The translations under genes were made by a program, and so were the position numbers. Below, in pieces: positions 3,671 to 49,998 of a stretch of 64,000 nucleotides of DNA (position 1 is its first letter; the number at the start of each line of letters is the position of its first letter). This stretch comes from Thalassovita sp. Its GTDB lineage: Bacteria > Bacteroidota > Bacteroidia > Cytophagales > Flammeovirgaceae. Below the pieces are notes generated by a model. It was not told the DNA's origin. It made no database searches and saw only the letters and a list, made by a program, of their open reading frames with translations. The stretch covers positions 1 through 64,000 of the forward strand of contig PBYL01000463.1 of NCBI GenBank assembly GCA_002729595.1. The letters are read 5' to 3'.

Positions 3671-6340
3671 ATGAATTTAAAGATTATTGATCAGCTACTT
3701 CTGCATACAGAAGAAGTTTTAATAGAGTTAACATCAGAGGGAATTATTACTTATCTCTCAAACAACTGGGAAGAAAAAACGGGTCTGCCAGTACAAAGAG
3801 TTCTAAATCAGCTATTGTTTAATTATTTGTTAGAGGATGAAGCCGTAGATTTTAAACACTTTTTAAATAGTGCTTCAAACTCATTTTCTCAGAAATTACA
3901 ATTTTCAATTGAACATTTCCAATATAATATAGAGCCGCTCTTTTGTAAAGTACAAAATGGTGAAGGTCTCAAAGTAGCTGGTAAATTAAAATTTATCCCA
4001 AAACAGCAACAGTTACCACCTGAAACTCCACACTTGACCTTCCAAACTAGTTTGCATAAATCTGATGACAGGATAAAAAAGTTGAGTCAAGTAGATTTTA
4101 AAAATATCCAGACAAAAGAGCTAATCAATCAATTTACTAGTGAAGTTAAACTGGGATTTTGGGAGTATTACAAATCGACTCAGCAGCTTGTCTGGTCAAA
4201 TGAGCTTTTCCATATCTTCGATTTGCCCCTAAATACATCAGTTAATCTAGATAAAATATTCTCTTATTGTGAGGAAGAATTTAGAGATGTATTGATAGCT
4301 AAGTTTAATTTATTGCTAGACGACGGAATTGAGTTTGATTTTACGATAAATGTAAATACAGAAAAAGAGCAAAATAAGTGGCTAAGGTTTATTGCTAAAA
4401 CAAATAACTCAGAACAAGGTGAAGCTAAGTTTTATGGAGTTATTCAGGATATTACCAACCAGATTGAAATCTTATTTGAAGCTGATAAAACGAGATCTCA
4501 GTTCCAGTTAATTGCCAAAAATGCGAGTGGCCTTATTAGTACACATTTTGAAGATGGTACATATAAATTTGTTTCTCCCTCTGCCAAGCAACTAACAGGT
4601 TACGATGCGGAAGAATTAATAGGAGCAAACCCTTTCGATTATGTGTATAAAGGTGATATAGAGGCTTTTAAGAATCATGTGTTTAAGAATCAAAAACCGA
4701 AAGAAGATAATCTGGTTTTACACAGGTTTATCAAAAAGGATAAATCATTGGTTTGGTTTGAAACAGTTACCAGTCCGATATTGGTAGACGAAGAGTTGAT
4801 AGGCCATATAAGCTATTCTCGTGATGTTACTGAAAAAAGAAAAAATGAAATTGCCCTTCAAAAAAGTGAGCACAGATTAAAGTTGGCTTTAGAATCTGGT
4901 AAAATGGGAATTTGGGAATGGATGATTCCAGAAGACAAGTGGTTGCTCTCAAACAATATGTTAGAATTGCTCGGAATTTCTAATGATGAATTTTTGGGTA
5001 CTGAAGAAGAAGTGATTAAGAAAATCCATCCGGAAGATAGCATTGTATTTTTAAATTCTTTGAAGAATGCATTGAAATACAAAACCAGAAATTGGTCAAT
5101 TACACATCGGCTTATTGGCGACATGAACAAGGTTATTTGGCTTGAGTGGAATGGCGAGTTATATGTTGATAAAAAGGGCAATCCGGAATACTTTATCGGA
5201 ACAGCCTCAGATGTTACTACCAAAAAAGAATATGAAAGAGAAGTGCGTAAACTTGCTTTGGTGGCTAAGAATACAGTTAATGCAGTCATTATAACTGACA
5301 AATTAGGCAATGTAGAGTGGGTAAACGAAGGTTTTGAAACCTTACTTGGTTACTCACTTGATGAAGTAAGAGGCTATAATCCATTAGAGTTTATAAATGG
5401 AAAAGAGACTAATACTGAAACTATAAAGCAGTTTGAATTTGCTATAGAGCAGAAAAAATCTTTTCGAGCTGAGTTTTTCAACTATAATAAAAAAGGGCAA
5501 AAGTATTGGGTAGAATTAAACTTGCATCCGGTATTTGATAATGCAGGTAATCTGGAACGGTTCATTTTTATCCAAAATGACTTATCTCGGTACAAAGAGC
5601 AGGAAGAAGAAATGGTTCGGCATAATGATAAGCTCCAAAAAGCCAATGAAGAATTAGACAACTTTGTTTATCGGGTTTCTCATGATTTACGAGCGCCAAT
5701 TAGTTCTAGCTTGGGTTTATTAGAGGTGATAGAAATGGAGAAAGAAGAAGAGCATGGCAGTAAATACCTCGAACTTCTTCGACATAGCATGATCAGGATG
5801 GATAATTTCATTAGAGATATACTCAACTATTCTAGAAATGCCCGAATGTCTATAAACGCCGAGACATTTAACCTCATTGACCTTATTAATGAAACTATAG
5901 AGCATTATAAGTTTATACACCGAGATATTACTTTAAGAGAGATTAGAGATTATGAAAATGCTTTGTACATCAGTTCTGATCGATTGAGGTTGAGCATTGT
6001 GCTTTCAAACTTAATTTCAAATGTGTATAAATTTTGTAATCAAGATGCCGATAAACCTTATTTGTGGGTGTCTGCAAAAGAAGAAAACAATTCTATAGAA
6101 ATTATCATTGCAGATAATGGAATTGGCATACAAAAAGAATTTGAGTTAAAGGTATTTGATATGTTCTTTAGAGCGACCAATCAAGGAGGAGGTTCGGGTT
6201 TGGGTTTGTATATCGCTAAAGAAACAATTGAAAAAATTGGTGGGTCAATATCGCTTAAATCTGTTGCAGATAAGGGAACCACAATTAAGTTGTTGCTTCC
6301 CAAAAACCATCGATACGGCTTTAAACTCTTAGATAATTAA
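3671..6340 (+). CDS. Multi-PAS sensor histidine kinase
   Basis: An 889-residue protein without an obvious signal peptide or membrane span, so probably cytoplasmic. It contains four to five PAS-type modules: one near the N-terminus, then about residues 150-265, 275-390, 400-525 and 530-650. Several end in the typical DIT, DVT or ASDVT signature. A HisKA dimerisation domain follows, with phospho-acceptor His671 in RVSHDLRAP, then a HATPase_c domain with DNGIGI and GSGLGLYI. There is no receiver domain and no response-regulator gene next to it, so the target is unknown. A GTG at 3665 is in frame six bases earlier; the ATG at 3671 is preferred. It starts 269 bp after the partition operon and ends at a strong terminator. 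Confidence 0.9.
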   Translation: MNLKIIDQLLLHTEEVLIELTSEGIITYLSNNWEEKTGLPVQRVLNQLLFNYLLEDEAVDFKHFLNSASNSFSQKLQFSIEHFQYNIEPLFCKVQNGEGLKVAGKLKFIPKQQQLPPETPHLTFQTSLHKSDDRIKKLSQVDFKNIQTKELINQFTSEVKLGFWEYYKSTQQLVWSNELFHIFDLPLNTSVNLDKIFSYCEEEFRDVLIAKFNLLLDDGIEFDFTINVNTEKEQNKWLRFIAKTNNSEQGEAKFYGVIQDITNQIEILFEADKTRSQFQLIAKNASGLISTHFEDGTYKFVSPSAKQLTGYDAEELIGANPFDYVYKGDIEAFKNHVFKNQKPKEDNLVLHRFIKKDKSLVWFETVTSPILVDEELIGHISYSRDVTEKRKNEIALQKSEHRLKLALESGKMGIWEWMIPEDKWLLSNNMLELLGISNDEFLGTEEEVIKKIHPEDSIVFLNSLKNALKYKTRNWSITHRLIGDMNKVIWLEWNGELYVDKKGNPEYFIGTASDVTTKKEYEREVRKLALVAKNTVNAVIITDKLGNVEWVNEGFETLLGYSLDEVRGYNPLEFINGKETNTETIKQFEFAIEQKKSFRAEFFNYNKKGQKYWVELNLHPVFDNAGNLERFIFIQNDLSRYKEQEEEMVRHNDKLQKANEELDNFVYRVSHDLRAPISSSLGLLEVIEMEKEEEHGSKYLELLRHSMIRMDNFIRDILNYSRNARMSINAETFNLIDLINETIEHYKFIHRDITLREIRDYENALYISSDRLRLSIVLSNLISNVYKFCNQDADKPYLWVSAKEENNSIEIIIADNGIGIQKEFELKVFDMFFRATNQGGGSGLGLYIAKETIEKIGGSISLKSVADKGTTIKLLLPKNHRYGFKLLDN

Positions 6341-46592: not shown

Positions 46593-46773
46593 ATGAACAA
46601 CATTTTCAAACTACTTACTATTTGCTTTCCTTCTTACTTCTTGTAACCAATCTTCAGAGTTTAATGGCAAATGGCTAAAACTCACTTTAGATTCTTATTC
46701 ATTGCAGGATACTATTGAGCTTGTTAGGAGTATTTCAAATTTTTATTGGGGTATAAATATAGTTAATAAATAA
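46593..46773 (+). pseudogene. Frameshifted, truncated small lipoprotein gene
   Basis: ATG at 46593 opens MNNIFKLLTICF and then hits a stop in its own frame at 46644. If one T is removed from the TTT at about 46626-46628, the reading continues as ICFLLTSC, a perfect lipobox, then NQSSEFNGKWLKLTLDSYS to a stop at 46771-46773. EFNGKW after the lipid cysteine is typical of lipocalin-like lipoproteins, which are usually over 120 residues. The restored product is only about 60 residues, so the gene is both frameshifted and shortened. A sequencing error could explain the frameshift but not the short length. Confidence 0.6.
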
Positions 46774-46790
46774 AACAGACAAGTCTGTTT
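46773..46790. promoter_or_regulatory. Palindromic operator upstream of TetR gene
   Basis: AAACAGAC-AA-GTCTGTTT, a perfect 8-bp-arm dyad; its 14-bp core ACAGACAAGTCTGT (46775-46788) recurs as the exact reverse complement at 47411-47424. It abuts the -33-like TTTG at 46788-46791 of the TetR promoter, so bound protein should block RNA polymerase. Confidence 0.75.
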
Positions 46791-46811
46791 GTTTTTGAAA
46801 ATAATCCCGCA

Positions 46812-46819
46812 TACATTTG
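46812..46819 (+). promoter_or_regulatory. Bacteroidota -7 box of the TetR gene
   Basis: TACATTTG matches TAnnTTTG and lies 20 bp after the -33-like TTTG (46788-46791). It ends 4 bases before the ATG, so the message would be nearly leaderless. Confidence 0.6.
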
Positions 46820-46823
46820 TTAT

Positions 46824-47384
46824 ATGAAAAAGCCAGGAGTGAAGGAAAGAATTATTGATACTGCCTCTAGATTGTTCTACTATGAGGGTTTTAATCAGAC
46901 GGGGATCAATAGGATAATTGAAGAAGCCGGAGTGGCTAAGGCGAGTATGTATCAACACTTTAGGTCGAAAGAAGATATTGCGGTTGCTTATTTGGAGAGA
47001 AGGCACCAAGAGGGTTTTGTAAAAATGGCTGAATATGTAGCGGATAAACCTAATTATAAAGAAAAGGCTCTGGCTGCATTTGATTATTTATACGACTGGC
47101 TCAGTTCGGTCAATTTTAGAGGTTGTGTTTTTCAGAATATCATTACTGATCTGCCGAAAGATCACATAAAAATTAGAGATAAAGTAAGAAACCAAAAAGA
47201 CGAACGTCGCAATTGGATTCAAAACCTGATTAAAAGTGGAGGTGAGCATACAACCGAAGAAGCCGAAAAATTGGGTGACGAAATTATGGTTTTAATGGAA
47301 GGGGCAATCATTATGACGCAAATACAACAAGACTGTTGGCCAATAAAAACAGCTAAGGAGACCTGTAGAAAATTATTAGGTTAA
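46824..47384 (+). CDS. TetR/AcrR-family repressor of a GAPDH locus
   Basis: A 186-residue regulator. The helix-turn-helix occupies about residues 8-55 (ERIIDTASRLFYYEGFNQTG, then EAGVAKASMYQHFRSKEDI). The C-terminal helical domain has a CVFQNIITDLPKDH segment and a TetR_C-like ending. Members of this AcrR-like branch often sense electrophiles or drugs. Copies of one palindrome flank the gene on both sides, so it should repress itself and the downstream genes. The start is fixed by the short leader after the -7 box. Confidence 0.92.
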   Translation: MKKPGVKERIIDTASRLFYYEGFNQTGINRIIEEAGVAKASMYQHFRSKEDIAVAYLERRHQEGFVKMAEYVADKPNYKEKALAAFDYLYDWLSSVNFRGCVFQNIITDLPKDHIKIRDKVRNQKDERRNWIQNLIKSGGEHTTEEAEKLGDEIMVLMEGAIIMTQIQQDCWPIKTAKETCRKLLG

Positions 47385-47410
47385 GCCTAAAAAAATTTAA
47401 ATAAAAAAGA

Positions 47411-47424
47411 ACAGACTTGTCTGT
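47411..47424. promoter_or_regulatory. Second copy of the TetR operator, before the GAPDH gene
   Basis: ACAGACTTGTCTGT is the exact reverse complement of the 14-bp core at 46775-46788. It lies 27 bases after the TetR stop and upstream of the GAPDH gene, so both transcription units are probably under one regulator. Confidence 0.75.
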
Positions 47425-47547
47425 ATGTAAATCATTTTGAGAATAGAGAAAAAGTACAAGCATTTTGATAATTAATCAATTTACCAGCAGGCAGTTTATG
47501 TCTAAGTTAACTACAGTTTTTGTTTTGAGTTGAAAATGAAGTAATGG

Positions 47548-47618
47548 AAGGAAAGACAAGGCAATTTAGAAGTTCGTAGCTAAAGCTACGGGCTGAAAAA
47601 TTAACGAAGTCTTTCCTT
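47548..47618. repeat. Nested palindrome in the GAPDH leader
   Basis: Outer arms AAGGAAAGAC (47548-47557) and GTCTTTCCTT (47609-47618) enclose a perfect inner hairpin CGTAGC-TAAA-GCTACG (47575-47590). It may be a REP-like element or a structured mRNA leader. No second copy was noticed in the window. Confidence 0.5.
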
Positions 47619-47694
47619 TCAAGACGAATTTGCAGACTAAAGAAAAGCTTTAGCTAACTTATTGAAATAGAATCACATAAAACATATAAATACA

Positions 47695-48681
47695 ATGAAA
47701 AGAATTGCAATTAATGGAATGGGAAGAATAGGAAGAACTTCCCTTAAAATAATTTTAGATACTCCAGAACTCGAATTAGTAGCAGTAAACGACATTGCTC
47801 CAATTAACAGTATCGCATATTTGCTTAAGTACGACAGTGTGCAAGGCAATTACGATAAAGAGATTGAAGTAAAAGAGGAAGGCTTGATTATAGGCGATCA
47901 GAAAATTATGTTTCTGAATGAAAAAGATCCTGAAAAACTTCCTTGGGCTGCACTAAAAGTTGATGTGGTTATCGAAAGTACCGGGATTTTTACTTCAGAA
48001 GAAGATGCCTCCAAACACATTAAAGCGGGAGCAAAAACAGTAGTACTTTCTGGCCCTACTAAAAGTGCCAATCTACCAACAGTTGTGCACGGTGTAAATA
48101 CTGATGATGGCAAGGTGAGTATTTTCTCTTGCGCGAGCTGTACCACCAATAATATCAGTCCGGTGATTGAAATAATTGGTAGGAGAGTTGGCATTAAAAA
48201 AGCGATTATGACGACCATCCATGCGAATACCGCTTCGAACAAAACTGTCGATTTACCCGGAAGAGATATGCGAATGGGTAGATCAGGATTAAACAACTTA
48301 ATTCCAACTACGACTGGTGCTGCTGTAGCTACCACCAAAGCTTTACCAGAATACGCTGGCAAGTTCGATGGTTTGGCCATTAGGGTTCCAGTTGCTGTAG
48401 GTTCGATCTCTGATATTACCATCGTAACAGATCGCCCAACATCAGCACAAGAAATCAACGAAATATTAACGCAAGAAGCTAAGACTGATCGCTATCAAAA
48501 AGTTTTCACGGTGACGAATGACCCAATAGTTTCTTCAGATATTATTAAAAGTCCATATGCTTCTATAGCCGATTTATCTATGACCAAAGTAGTTGATGGA
48601 GATTTACTGAAAGTTTTAACATGGTACGACAACGAATGGGGTTTTACCAATCAAATGATTAGACAGATTCTCGAACTATAA
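47695..48681 (+). CDS. Divergent glyceraldehyde-3-phosphate dehydrogenase
   Basis: A 328-residue NAD-dependent dehydrogenase. NGMGRIGRTS is the NAD motif; catalytic Cys149 (SCASCTTNN) and His176 (TIHANTAS) sit at their canonical positions; PTTTGAA and YDNEWGF are kept. Deviations: Cys146 where Asn is usual, Asn153 where the second Cys of CTTNC is usual, and an altered loop after His176 (HANTASNKTVD instead of HAYTNDQ-type). These suggest a specialised paralogue, not the glycolytic enzyme. It would oxidise GAP or a similar aldehyde to an acyl phosphate. It follows the TetR gene and shares its operator type, and may be induced by electrophiles. Confidence 0.85.
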   Translation: MKRIAINGMGRIGRTSLKIILDTPELELVAVNDIAPINSIAYLLKYDSVQGNYDKEIEVKEEGLIIGDQKIMFLNEKDPEKLPWAALKVDVVIESTGIFTSEEDASKHIKAGAKTVVLSGPTKSANLPTVVHGVNTDDGKVSIFSCASCTTNNISPVIEIIGRRVGIKKAIMTTIHANTASNKTVDLPGRDMRMGRSGLNNLIPTTTGAAVATTKALPEYAGKFDGLAIRVPVAVGSISDITIVTDRPTSAQEINEILTQEAKTDRYQKVFTVTNDPIVSSDIIKSPYASIADLSMTKVVDGDLLKVLTWYDNEWGFTNQMIRQILEL

Positions 48682-48695
48682 CGCTATCCATTTTA

Positions 48696-48731
48696 CCGGA
48701 AGATGTGTTGTACAAGCAGCTATTCTTCCGG
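48696..48731 (+). terminator. Weak hairpin between GAPDH and PPOX genes
   Basis: CCGGAAGA (48696-48703) pairs with TCTTCCGG (48724-48731) around a 20-base loop, followed by CTTTATTA. It may attenuate read-through into the next gene. It overlaps an upstream in-frame ATG at 48703, which argues for the later start at 48757. Confidence 0.45.
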
Positions 48732-48756: not shown

Positions 48757-49356
48757 ATGAATTATGCAAAATTGGCATTTACAGATGCTGTAAAGAAATT
48801 GCAGGAGCAAAATGGGAGTCGGAAAAGCTATGAGAGAATGGAGCAGTTTACCAATGATGATGGTTTATCTGCACGAGAGGCAAGGCATATCCAAAATAGA
48901 GATAGCTTTTATCTGGCAACCTATGGCGAAAATGGCTTTCCTTACATCCAACATAGAGGTGGACCCAAAGGATTTTTAAAGGTGTTAGATTCTCAAACTA
49001 TCGGCTTTCTAGATTTTAGCGGTAACAAGCAATACATTTCTACGGGTAACATCCAGCATAATAATAAAGTATCACTTTTTTTGATGGATTACCCTACCAA
49101 AACGCGATTGAAAATTTATGCCGAAACTGAGGTTTTAGCTTTAGATGAGAAACCAGAAATTACGGAGAAACTTCAGCTAAATAATTACCGATACAGTGCT
49201 GAGCGAGTGATGTTATTCCATGTGAAAGCATTTAATTGGAATTGCCCACAACATATTACGCCAAGATATTCTGTAGAAGAAATGGAAGATGTATTTACTG
49301 CACAGCAAGAATATATTAAAACCCTAGAATCTGAAATTAAAAGGTTGAGAGGCTAG
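48757..49356 (+). CDS. Pyridoxamine-phosphate-oxidase-fold FMN-binding protein
   Basis: A 199-residue protein from ATG 48757 (MNYAKLAFTDAVKKLQEQNG). The split-barrel FMN domain is seen at about residues 35-165: FYLATYGENGFPYIQHRGGP, IGFLDFSGNKQYISTGN, KVSLFLMDYP and KIYAETEVL. A C-terminal coiled coil (FTAQQEYIKTLESEIKRLRG) follows. These proteins use FMN or F420 to reduce or protect small molecules; the substrate is unknown. It lies 75 bp after the GAPDH gene on the same strand. Confidence 0.82.
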   Translation: MNYAKLAFTDAVKKLQEQNGSRKSYERMEQFTNDDGLSAREARHIQNRDSFYLATYGENGFPYIQHRGGPKGFLKVLDSQTIGFLDFSGNKQYISTGNIQHNNKVSLFLMDYPTKTRLKIYAETEVLALDEKPEITEKLQLNNYRYSAERVMLFHVKAFNWNCPQHITPRYSVEEMEDVFTAQQEYIKTLESEIKRLRG

Positions 49357-49410: not shown

Positions 49411-49998
49411 ATGGAAAATGAGGTTTTGCAATACCTAGAGCAATTTGTTACACTAACAGAAGAAGAGAAACAGGTAATTAGCAGAAATATATCGATACAG
49501 AATTTCTCCAAAGGTACAATTCTGGTAAAAGAAGGCGATGTTGCAGATCAGTCTTATTTTGTAATTAAAGGATGCATTAGGCAGTATTATCTTTCTGGCA
49601 TCGAAGAGAAAACAACTCATTTTTACACCGAAGAACAATCCACTCCCACTTATTCTACAAAAGACAAAAAAGTACTAGCCAAGCATTATTTAGCTTGTAC
49701 AGAAGACACTACGGTGGCAGTTTGCAAAGCTGGCGACGAAATGAATATCTTTCAGGATAATCCGAAACTGGAATCGCTTTCAAGGATGATTGCCGAACAA
49801 GATGTAGCCGAATCTCAGGAAGCTTTTGCCAATTTTATCACCTCTTCTCCAGAAGAACGCTATCTCGATTTGCTTAAAAACCGACCAGATTTAGTGCAAA
49901 GAGTACCGCAATATCAGTTGGCTAGTTATCTGGGAGTTACACCGGAATCTTTAAGCCGAATTAGAAAGCGACTGCATAGAAATGCTGCTTCTAGTTAA
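49411..49998 (+). CDS. Crp/Fnr-family regulator
   Basis: A 195-residue protein with a cyclic-nucleotide-binding-type beta-roll (about 15-115: SKGTILVKEGDVADQSYFVIKGCIRQYY) and a C-terminal helix-turn-helix (PQYQLASYLGVTPESLSRIRKRL). It lacks Cys clusters typical of Fnr. The ligand is unknown. It sits 54 bp after the FMN-protein gene and may be in the same operon. Its 3' end overlaps the convergent DUF4386 gene by 48 bp. Confidence 0.9.
   Translation: MENEVLQYLEQFVTLTEEEKQVISRNISIQNFSKGTILVKEGDVADQSYFVIKGCIRQYYLSGIEEKTTHFYTEEQSTPTYSTKDKKVLAKHYLACTEDTTVAVCKAGDEMNIFQDNPKLESLSRMIAEQDVAESQEAFANFITSSPEERYLDLLKNRPDLVQRVPQYQLASYLGVTPESLSRIRKRLHRNAASS

Follow-up and report, generated by a model that had tools for sequence, protein, structure and literature searches.

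A predicted palindromic operator of a Bacteroidota TetR repressor and its putative detoxification operon, with a second GAPDH as occasional cargo

Introduction

Among described regulators, the closest counterparts of the system considered here are NemR of Escherichia coli and RcrR of uropathogenic E. coli (UPEC), TetR repressors that sense reactive chlorine or electrophiles and that are described in passages of PMC7464077 and PMC9600549, respectively. In the passage of PMC7464077 on the NemR sulfenamide switch, Lys175 is named as the partner of Cys106, and the bond is worded as a sulfonamide. Here we analyse a 64,000-nucleotide stretch of DNA from Thalassovita sp. (assembly GCA_002729595.1, contig PBYL01000463.1; the whole stretch is referred to as the window), in which a TetR-family repressor gene (tetR) lies between two copies of a 14-bp site and is followed by a gene for a glyceraldehyde-3-phosphate dehydrogenase (GAPDH). 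A reading of the letters without database searches (the original prediction) had proposed that these form one TetR unit with matching operators, that the GAPDH is specialised, inducible and non-glycolytic, possibly a by-pass enzyme under electrophile or oxidant stress, and that an FMN protein and a Crp/Fnr regulator downstream are part of the same unit.

Results

The regulatory unit is well supported by comparison of loci, and its core reads as follows:

46775-46788, no strand: op1, operator ACAGACAAGTCTGT, upstream of tetR and adjoining the -33 region of the operon promoter
46789-46819, + strand: putative promoter of the Bacteroidota type, TTG-N20-TACATTTG, with 4 bp between its end and the tetR ATG
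46824-47384, + strand: TetR-family repressor of 186 aa with an invariant Cys101, Pfam TetR_N and TetR_C_13_2 over cut-off
47411-47424, no strand: op2, operator ACAGACTTGTCTGT, 26 bp past tetR, without a recognisable promoter box
47695-48681, + strand: type-I-like GAPDH of a separate Bacteroidota clade, keeping Cys149 and His176, with Cys146, Asn153 and Ser239

Both genes are real open reading frames (ORFs) with Pfam support (TetR_N, 54.7 bits against a gathering score of 24; Gp_dh_N, 122.3 bits, and Gp_dh_C, 151.4 bits, both above cut-off). The operator ACAGACNNGTCTGT is a perfect 6-2-6 palindrome of 14 bp (ACAGAC-NN-GTCTGT), and the sole difference between op1 and op2 is the central AA/TT. 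The two sites thus lie around tetR as originally predicted; the exact reverse complementarity noted at the time is trivial, because a palindromic site is one operator read on either strand. In the Thalassovita sp. assembly (7,987,252 bases, 487 contigs, 77.7% complete), a search for the 14-mer found only two exact copies, both at the tetR locus, and one match to a reversed control pattern. Allowing one mismatch added five sites against five control sites, which is background, and a wider operator regulon in this genome was therefore dropped. That the TetR of Thalassovita sp. binds ACAGACNNGTCTGT is, by the comparison of loci given below, very likely.

The palindrome is conserved across genomes. 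TetR homologues (E<=1e-25) were present in 22 of 395 sampled genomes of the phylum, and together with three from relatives the 23 loci of this sample make a set of 26, in which the L149 site was counted without translation. The palindrome (at most one mismatch) stands 30-82 bp before the TetR start in 23 of the 26, and a further copy lies just past the gene in nine; at that tolerance no upstream palindrome was found in L137, L144 or L147. Close orthologues (E<=1e-55) occur in 21 of 397 Flavobacteriaceae-group genomes, a family label inferred from loci of known organisms. These 21 genomes hold 49 exact palindromes, 48 of them at the tetR locus, against three hits for the control pattern; one genome (G476) has no exact copy. 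An additional nine-genome set likewise showed palindromes local to tetR, bar two of four in G189. Outside the phylum, a TetR on a Nostoc plasmid (41% identical) has an exact site pair, one copy 33 bp ahead of the gene and the other 28 bp past it. On a Hymenobacter plasmid TetR is again bracketed by an operator pair, the second copy with one mismatch. The single unit with matching operators is thus kept across genera with similar spacing. As separate observations, the Nostoc bracket (L225, 4932-5581) has an HPP-family gene as cargo, and in L127, L153, L154 and L155, whose TetRs are more remote family members (38-39% identical), an SDR-like gene for some 248 aa, assigned to SDR by eye, comes after the TetR gene.

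The architecture was read from 23 loci with an orthologous tetR, namely the window, L115, L151, L152 and L204-L222; op1 is present in all of them (at most one mismatch) and op2 in 22. Promoter calls here rest on TAnnTTTG, which we take to be the Bacteroidota-type -7 box consensus. An exact box follows op1 in 20 of 23 loci, op2 in 1 of 22 and op3 (an intragenic copy, see below) in 0 of 15, with a shuffled expectation of about 3%. In the window the box, TACATTTG, occupies 46812-46819, four bases ahead of the tetR ATG, and the tetR mRNA is predicted to be near-leaderless. No such box was found between op2 and GAPDH in the window, and a separate promoter at op2 or ahead of GAPDH was dropped for that reason. 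As only op1 has a -7 box, the pattern suggests that op1 is the site of promoter occlusion and that op2 and op3 are promoterless auxiliary operators; on the simplest reading, op1 would control initiation of the whole unit and op2 and op3 would hinder elongation. We also noticed WGTTAA motifs in the stretch some 10-30 bp ahead of op1: 21 of 23 loci, the window among them, have at least one, and 13 have two or more, often about 12 bp apart; they precede op2 in only 1 of 22 loci. They are perhaps a second regulator site or an UP-like element.

The third operator lies inside an alpha/beta-hydrolase gene that is present in 16 of the 23 loci, at the same codons in 15; it is not present in the L212 gene. 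The conserved residues at op3 are TDLSV, and their codons are nearly uniform (ACA in 15/15, GAC in 16/16, TCT in 14/16) against a mean top-codon share of 0.64 over 193 conserved columns of the hydrolase. In a first comparison of three genomes, identity of the op3 type was seen in one of 46 five-codon windows, namely the palindrome itself, and hydrolase homologues from loci with no such TetR (L009 and L179) differ at op3 in residues and codons. Op3 thus appears to be kept by codon choice inside the hydrolase gene.

A possible sensor residue of the repressor is Cys101, which is invariant in eight aligned sequences and in the translated homologue rows of the 26-locus set. It aligns with NemR Cys106 (GC of 4yze), a match of position only, for which the chain offset of 2 in 4yze was deduced. 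The residue aligned with NemR Lys175, whose position was counted by hand, is Gln in the TetRs of the window, L115, L151 and L152. Thiol sensing through Cys101 is possible, and a Cys-Lys switch of the NemR type is unlikely. Neither nemA nor gloA was among the cargo identified in the 23 loci, where many ORFs stayed unnamed.

The cargo was tabulated with the members of the same 23 loci as references. DUF1348 is the most frequent (21/23), followed by a pyridoxamine 5'-phosphate oxidase-like (PPOX) flavoprotein (19/23), and GAPDH is present in eight (the window, L115, L151, L152 and L211-L214). Other cargo includes AhpD/CMD, isochorismatase-like, TadA-like deaminase, SDR, pirin, beta-lactamase-fold and thioredoxin proteins, the SDR and thioredoxin being identified by eye or local match; the names TrxB, RidA, Prx and TSUP, like those of the control genes below, were also read by eye and not by family search. 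In the PDB, the nearest matches of the cargo hydrolase are an alpha/beta-fold hydrolase and haloalkane dehalogenases, and it carries Asp where the nucleophile is expected. GAPDH follows other cargo in seven loci and is the first gene past op2 in the window. Where sampled Flavobacteriaceae genomes have both tetR and the clade GAPDH, the two lie 1.2-7.4 kb apart in six of seven.

Alignment confirms the residues originally read in the window GAPDH: Cys149 and His176 are kept, and Cys146 and Asn153 are present. It scores 361 bits against the type I equivalog TIGR01534, just under the cut-off of 367.2. In a 50-row tree, built with LG+G4 without a mixture model and given with a long-branch warning, it belongs to a clade of 16 members that forms one side of a branch with support 100/100. 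Cys149, His176, the Tyr of WYDNE and Cys146 are each present in 16/16; 15 members have Asn at position 153 and one has Ser, the residue at human position 243 is Ser in 16/16, and the NAD-type Asp32 motif is kept, as in housekeeping type I enzymes. The replacement of Cys153 by Asn or Ser is clade-specific in the sequences compared: the housekeeping GAPDH of Thalassovita sp. has Cys153, and so do actinobacterial relatives (50-53% identical). Two other supposed marks of specialisation are not supported. Cys146 is shared by the actinobacterial relatives and by the holo-GAPDH 1hdg (presumably the Thermotoga maritima enzyme), which reads SCASCTTN, and a special CxxC redox motif of Cys146 and Cys149 was dropped accordingly. 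The substrate loop described as altered reads RMGR and resembles the RGGR of ordinary Bacteroidota GAPDHs; loss of the phosphate-binding Arg195 was dropped too, the same position being Gly in those enzymes. As a side observation, a 53%-identical GAPDH lies on a Nocardioides sp. JS614 plasmid (L223, 8001-9047) near genes for a universal stress protein, a transaldolase and a slipin.

This is not the only GAPDH of the organism. A standard second enzyme, 43% identical, is encoded on another contig of the assembly (G000:C130:8962-9921), and with this second copy present and so few copies of the operator, the two objections to which the original prediction was exposed, a sole GAPDH and a 14-mer scattered genome-wide, both fail.

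The neighbourhoods of the clade differ from those of other GAPDHs. Within 4 kb of 16 clade and 78 control loci (full windows in 14 and 63; 73 controls from a genome contig scan, all outside the clade, and five from Bacteroidota relatives), the clade has PPOX in 8/16, DUF1348 in 6/16, AraC in 6/16, AhpD in 5/16, the hydrolase in 5/16 and OsmC in 3/16, each 0/78 in controls. Conversely, the three common control-neighbour families (26, 16 and 10 loci; by eye transketolase, phosphoglycerate kinase (PGK) and pyruvate kinase (PK)) are 0/16 in the clade. In L010 and L011 (about 4001-4987; Flavobacterium macacae and Algoriphagus) the clade GAPDH stands beside MsrA, MsrB and redoxin with AraC-type regulators nearby, and the L008 locus has none of the PPOX, DUF1348, AraC, AhpD, hydrolase, OsmC, Msr or redoxin neighbours. 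The prediction of a non-glycolytic GAPDH is borne out to the extent that this is a second, non-housekeeping copy in a detoxification and redox context. Elsewhere, a third GAPDH in G002 (L180, 4728-5816) has a different TetR gene directly upstream (4128-4712) and a nitroreductase nearby.

Neighbours that are detoxifying and not glycolytic, together with the score just under the type I cut-off, could also mean that the protein is itself a detoxifying dehydrogenase and no spare glycolytic enzyme, its substrate being a different (phospho)aldehyde, for example erythrose 4-phosphate or some toxic carbonyl. We regard this as unlikely, since the active-site motifs examined (ASCTTN, H176, TTTGAA and RVP) are those of a phosphorylating GAPDH and the erythrose-4-phosphate dehydrogenase model TIGR01532 gives 271.8 bits, far below its cut-off of 530.55. 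Arsenate resistance through an ArsJ-type GAPDH pathway is scarcely credible: the NCBIfam model of the ArsJ-associated GAPDH (NF033735) does match with 304 bits, but its cut-off is 450 and no ArsJ-like gene was among the seven window proteins scanned. A further alternative is resistance by target duplication of the kind known from pentalenolactone producers, in which TetR would sense a natural inhibitor of GAPDH. Inducible pentalenolactone-insensitive isoenzymes are known, according to an excerpt of PMC11727764, and the sporadic distribution of the clade would fit; however, several GAPDH-bearing loci sit with peroxide or methionine repair genes and most of the TetR operons carry no GAPDH, which makes this quite improbable.

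Position 153 corresponds to human Cys156. In passages of PMC5504048, which cites Peralta 2015, human GAPDH with Cys156Ser loses its sensitivity to oxidation by H2O2 and Val243Thr restores it; a greater sensitivity is suggested there for Staphylococcus aureus GAPDH, which has Ser in place of that Cys and Thr at 243. A Tyr314Phe mutant is given as redox-insensitive and still active in part of PMC10132988, and the equivalent Tyr is the one kept in WYDNE. By its residues, Asn153 could desensitise the clade enzymes to oxidants, and Ser at human position 243 together with the kept Tyr may offset this.

The remaining features of the window operon are these:

47541-47626, + strand: strong hairpin, resembling a repeat, in the spacer from op2 to GAPDH (47540-47670 folds with z -6.1)
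48696-48731, + strand: hairpin just past GAPDH and before the PPOX gene (fold z -4.4), a possible partial terminator or mRNA stabiliser
48757-49356, + strand: PPOX-type FMN-binding protein, Pfam PNPOx_N above cut-off, searched from 48763, two codons past the likely start
49411-49998, + strand: Crp/Fnr-like regulator adjacent to the PPOX gene, two Pfam models matched just under cut-off

The first hairpin has an 85%-identical intergenic copy elsewhere in the assembly (G000:C158:5287-5416), and because the spacer between op2 and GAPDH holds this stable element, the window operon is suggested to have lost ancestral genes that stood between them. The FMN protein proposed as part of the unit is indeed among its regular members, given how often PPOX recurs at the orthologous loci. 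For the Crp/Fnr regulator this is not supported: a homologue is near only 2 of 16 clade GAPDHs, so that it was dropped as a conserved partner and probably lies outside the conserved unit.

Discussion

We propose that TetR at op1 would occlude the promoter of its own gene and of the operon behind it. The other sites, op2 ahead of the cargo and op3 in the relatives that have it, would serve as auxiliary operators; in the simplest form they would be roadblocks, letting a little tetR be made but halting read-through into the cargo. Release of the repressor by a ligand or by a chemical that reacts with thiols would lead to production of the detoxification cargo, namely the PPOX flavoprotein and in relatives also DUF1348, AhpD-type and dehalogenase/epoxide-hydrolase-like enzymes. 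The Thalassovita sp. operon would have been trimmed to GAPDH and PPOX, perhaps with Crp, and GAPDH would be a second isoenzyme that keeps up triose-phosphate oxidation when chemicals have inactivated the housekeeping one. This model as a whole we rate somewhat above even. That the GAPDH is a stress stand-in is our best guess, held with a little less than even confidence.

Several observations weigh against the model. Fifteen of the 23 orthologous operons are without GAPDH, which is hence an optional passenger; GAPDH relatives among the closest (83% identical in G002, 76% in G217) come from genomes in which no TetR orthologue was found; and in the window op2 and GAPDH are 270 bp apart, with a very stable, repeat-like hairpin and no promoter box in between. 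The operators are spaced 619-701 bp apart without helical phasing, and as the spacings span all phases helically phased looping was dropped, looping between operators as such being possible. A Cys106-like residue also occurs in TetRs of unknown ligand, and the counterpart of NemR Lys175 is Gln. The clade has Ser at human position 243, where Thr restores H2O2 sensitivity in Cys156Ser (in the part of PMC5504048 cited above), and insensitivity of the clade enzyme to H2O2 may for that reason not hold.

The operons without GAPDH, the hairpin in the spacer and the frequent occurrence of the clade without this TetR would all suit a different history, in which the TetR operon is real and GAPDH a bystander, unrelated to it or expressed independently, that came to lie beside op2 through a deletion plus a repeat-like insertion. 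We consider this distinctly unlikely: eight of the 23 operons, from several genera, carry GAPDHs of the same clade on the operon strand, the clade is rare (6 of 395 phylum-wide genomes at E<=1e-110), GAPDH is embedded in the operon in L115, and no separate promoter box is seen ahead of the window gene. Control of GAPDH by TetR in the Thalassovita sp. genome, as read from this arrangement, is probable.

Keyword searches limited to one collection of PMC articles found no publication on this operator, on this DUF1348/TetR operon, on a hypochlorite-linked GAPDH operon with TetR in Bacteroidetes or on an oxidation-resistant second GAPDH paralog, and among the 15 of 2,175 papers listed by a broader isozyme search none was relevant by its title. 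A TetR subfamily for which no description was found gains a precise predicted operator and a locally confined regulon, of which an intragenic operator preserved by codon choice is part. In its widest form the proposal is that a TetR subfamily, present in Bacteroidota and on one or more cyanobacterial plasmids, governs detoxification operons that are self-contained, through operators at set positions, and that one cargo is a Cys153-replaced stress GAPDH sustaining glycolysis while the housekeeping GAPDH is thiol-inactivated; we advance this joint claim only tentatively and think it doubtful in full. If true, an inducible stand-in GAPDH that lacks the usual redox switch would offer a natural experiment on the reason that cells allow GAPDH to be oxidised at all; some bacteria would have both a switchable and a non-switchable GAPDH and choose between them by stress.

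Set beside known systems, the repressor shares with NemR and RcrR the TetR fold, a related C-terminal domain and the placing of the regulator gene within a small detoxification operon, here a putative one, and with NemR the conserved Cys aligned to Cys106. It differs in the Gln at the Lys175 position, in its cargo and in its paired and intragenic predicted operators. Through TetR_C_13_2 it resembles LmrA/YxaF-type regulators, whose known members act on genes of drug efflux or of the quercetin type, whereas the cargo here is PPOX, DUF1348, hydrolase and GAPDH. The operator plan resembles that of LacI-type multi-operator repressors in having a main operator at the promoter and promoterless downstream operators, one of them intragenic; unlike there, the regulator is of the TetR family, op2 stands between regulator and cargo, and spacing is variable. 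The GAPDH has the catalytic residues and NAD-type Asp32 motif of housekeeping type I enzymes, but falls short of their equivalog score, forms a separate clade and replaces Cys153. Finally, the pentalenolactone-insensitive GAPDH of Streptomyces, as presented in the excerpt of PMC11727764, is a second, inducible enzyme thought to replace an inhibited housekeeping one, as is proposed here; in the present case the context is redox and detoxification in a different phylum, and no antibiotic cluster was seen, none having been searched for.

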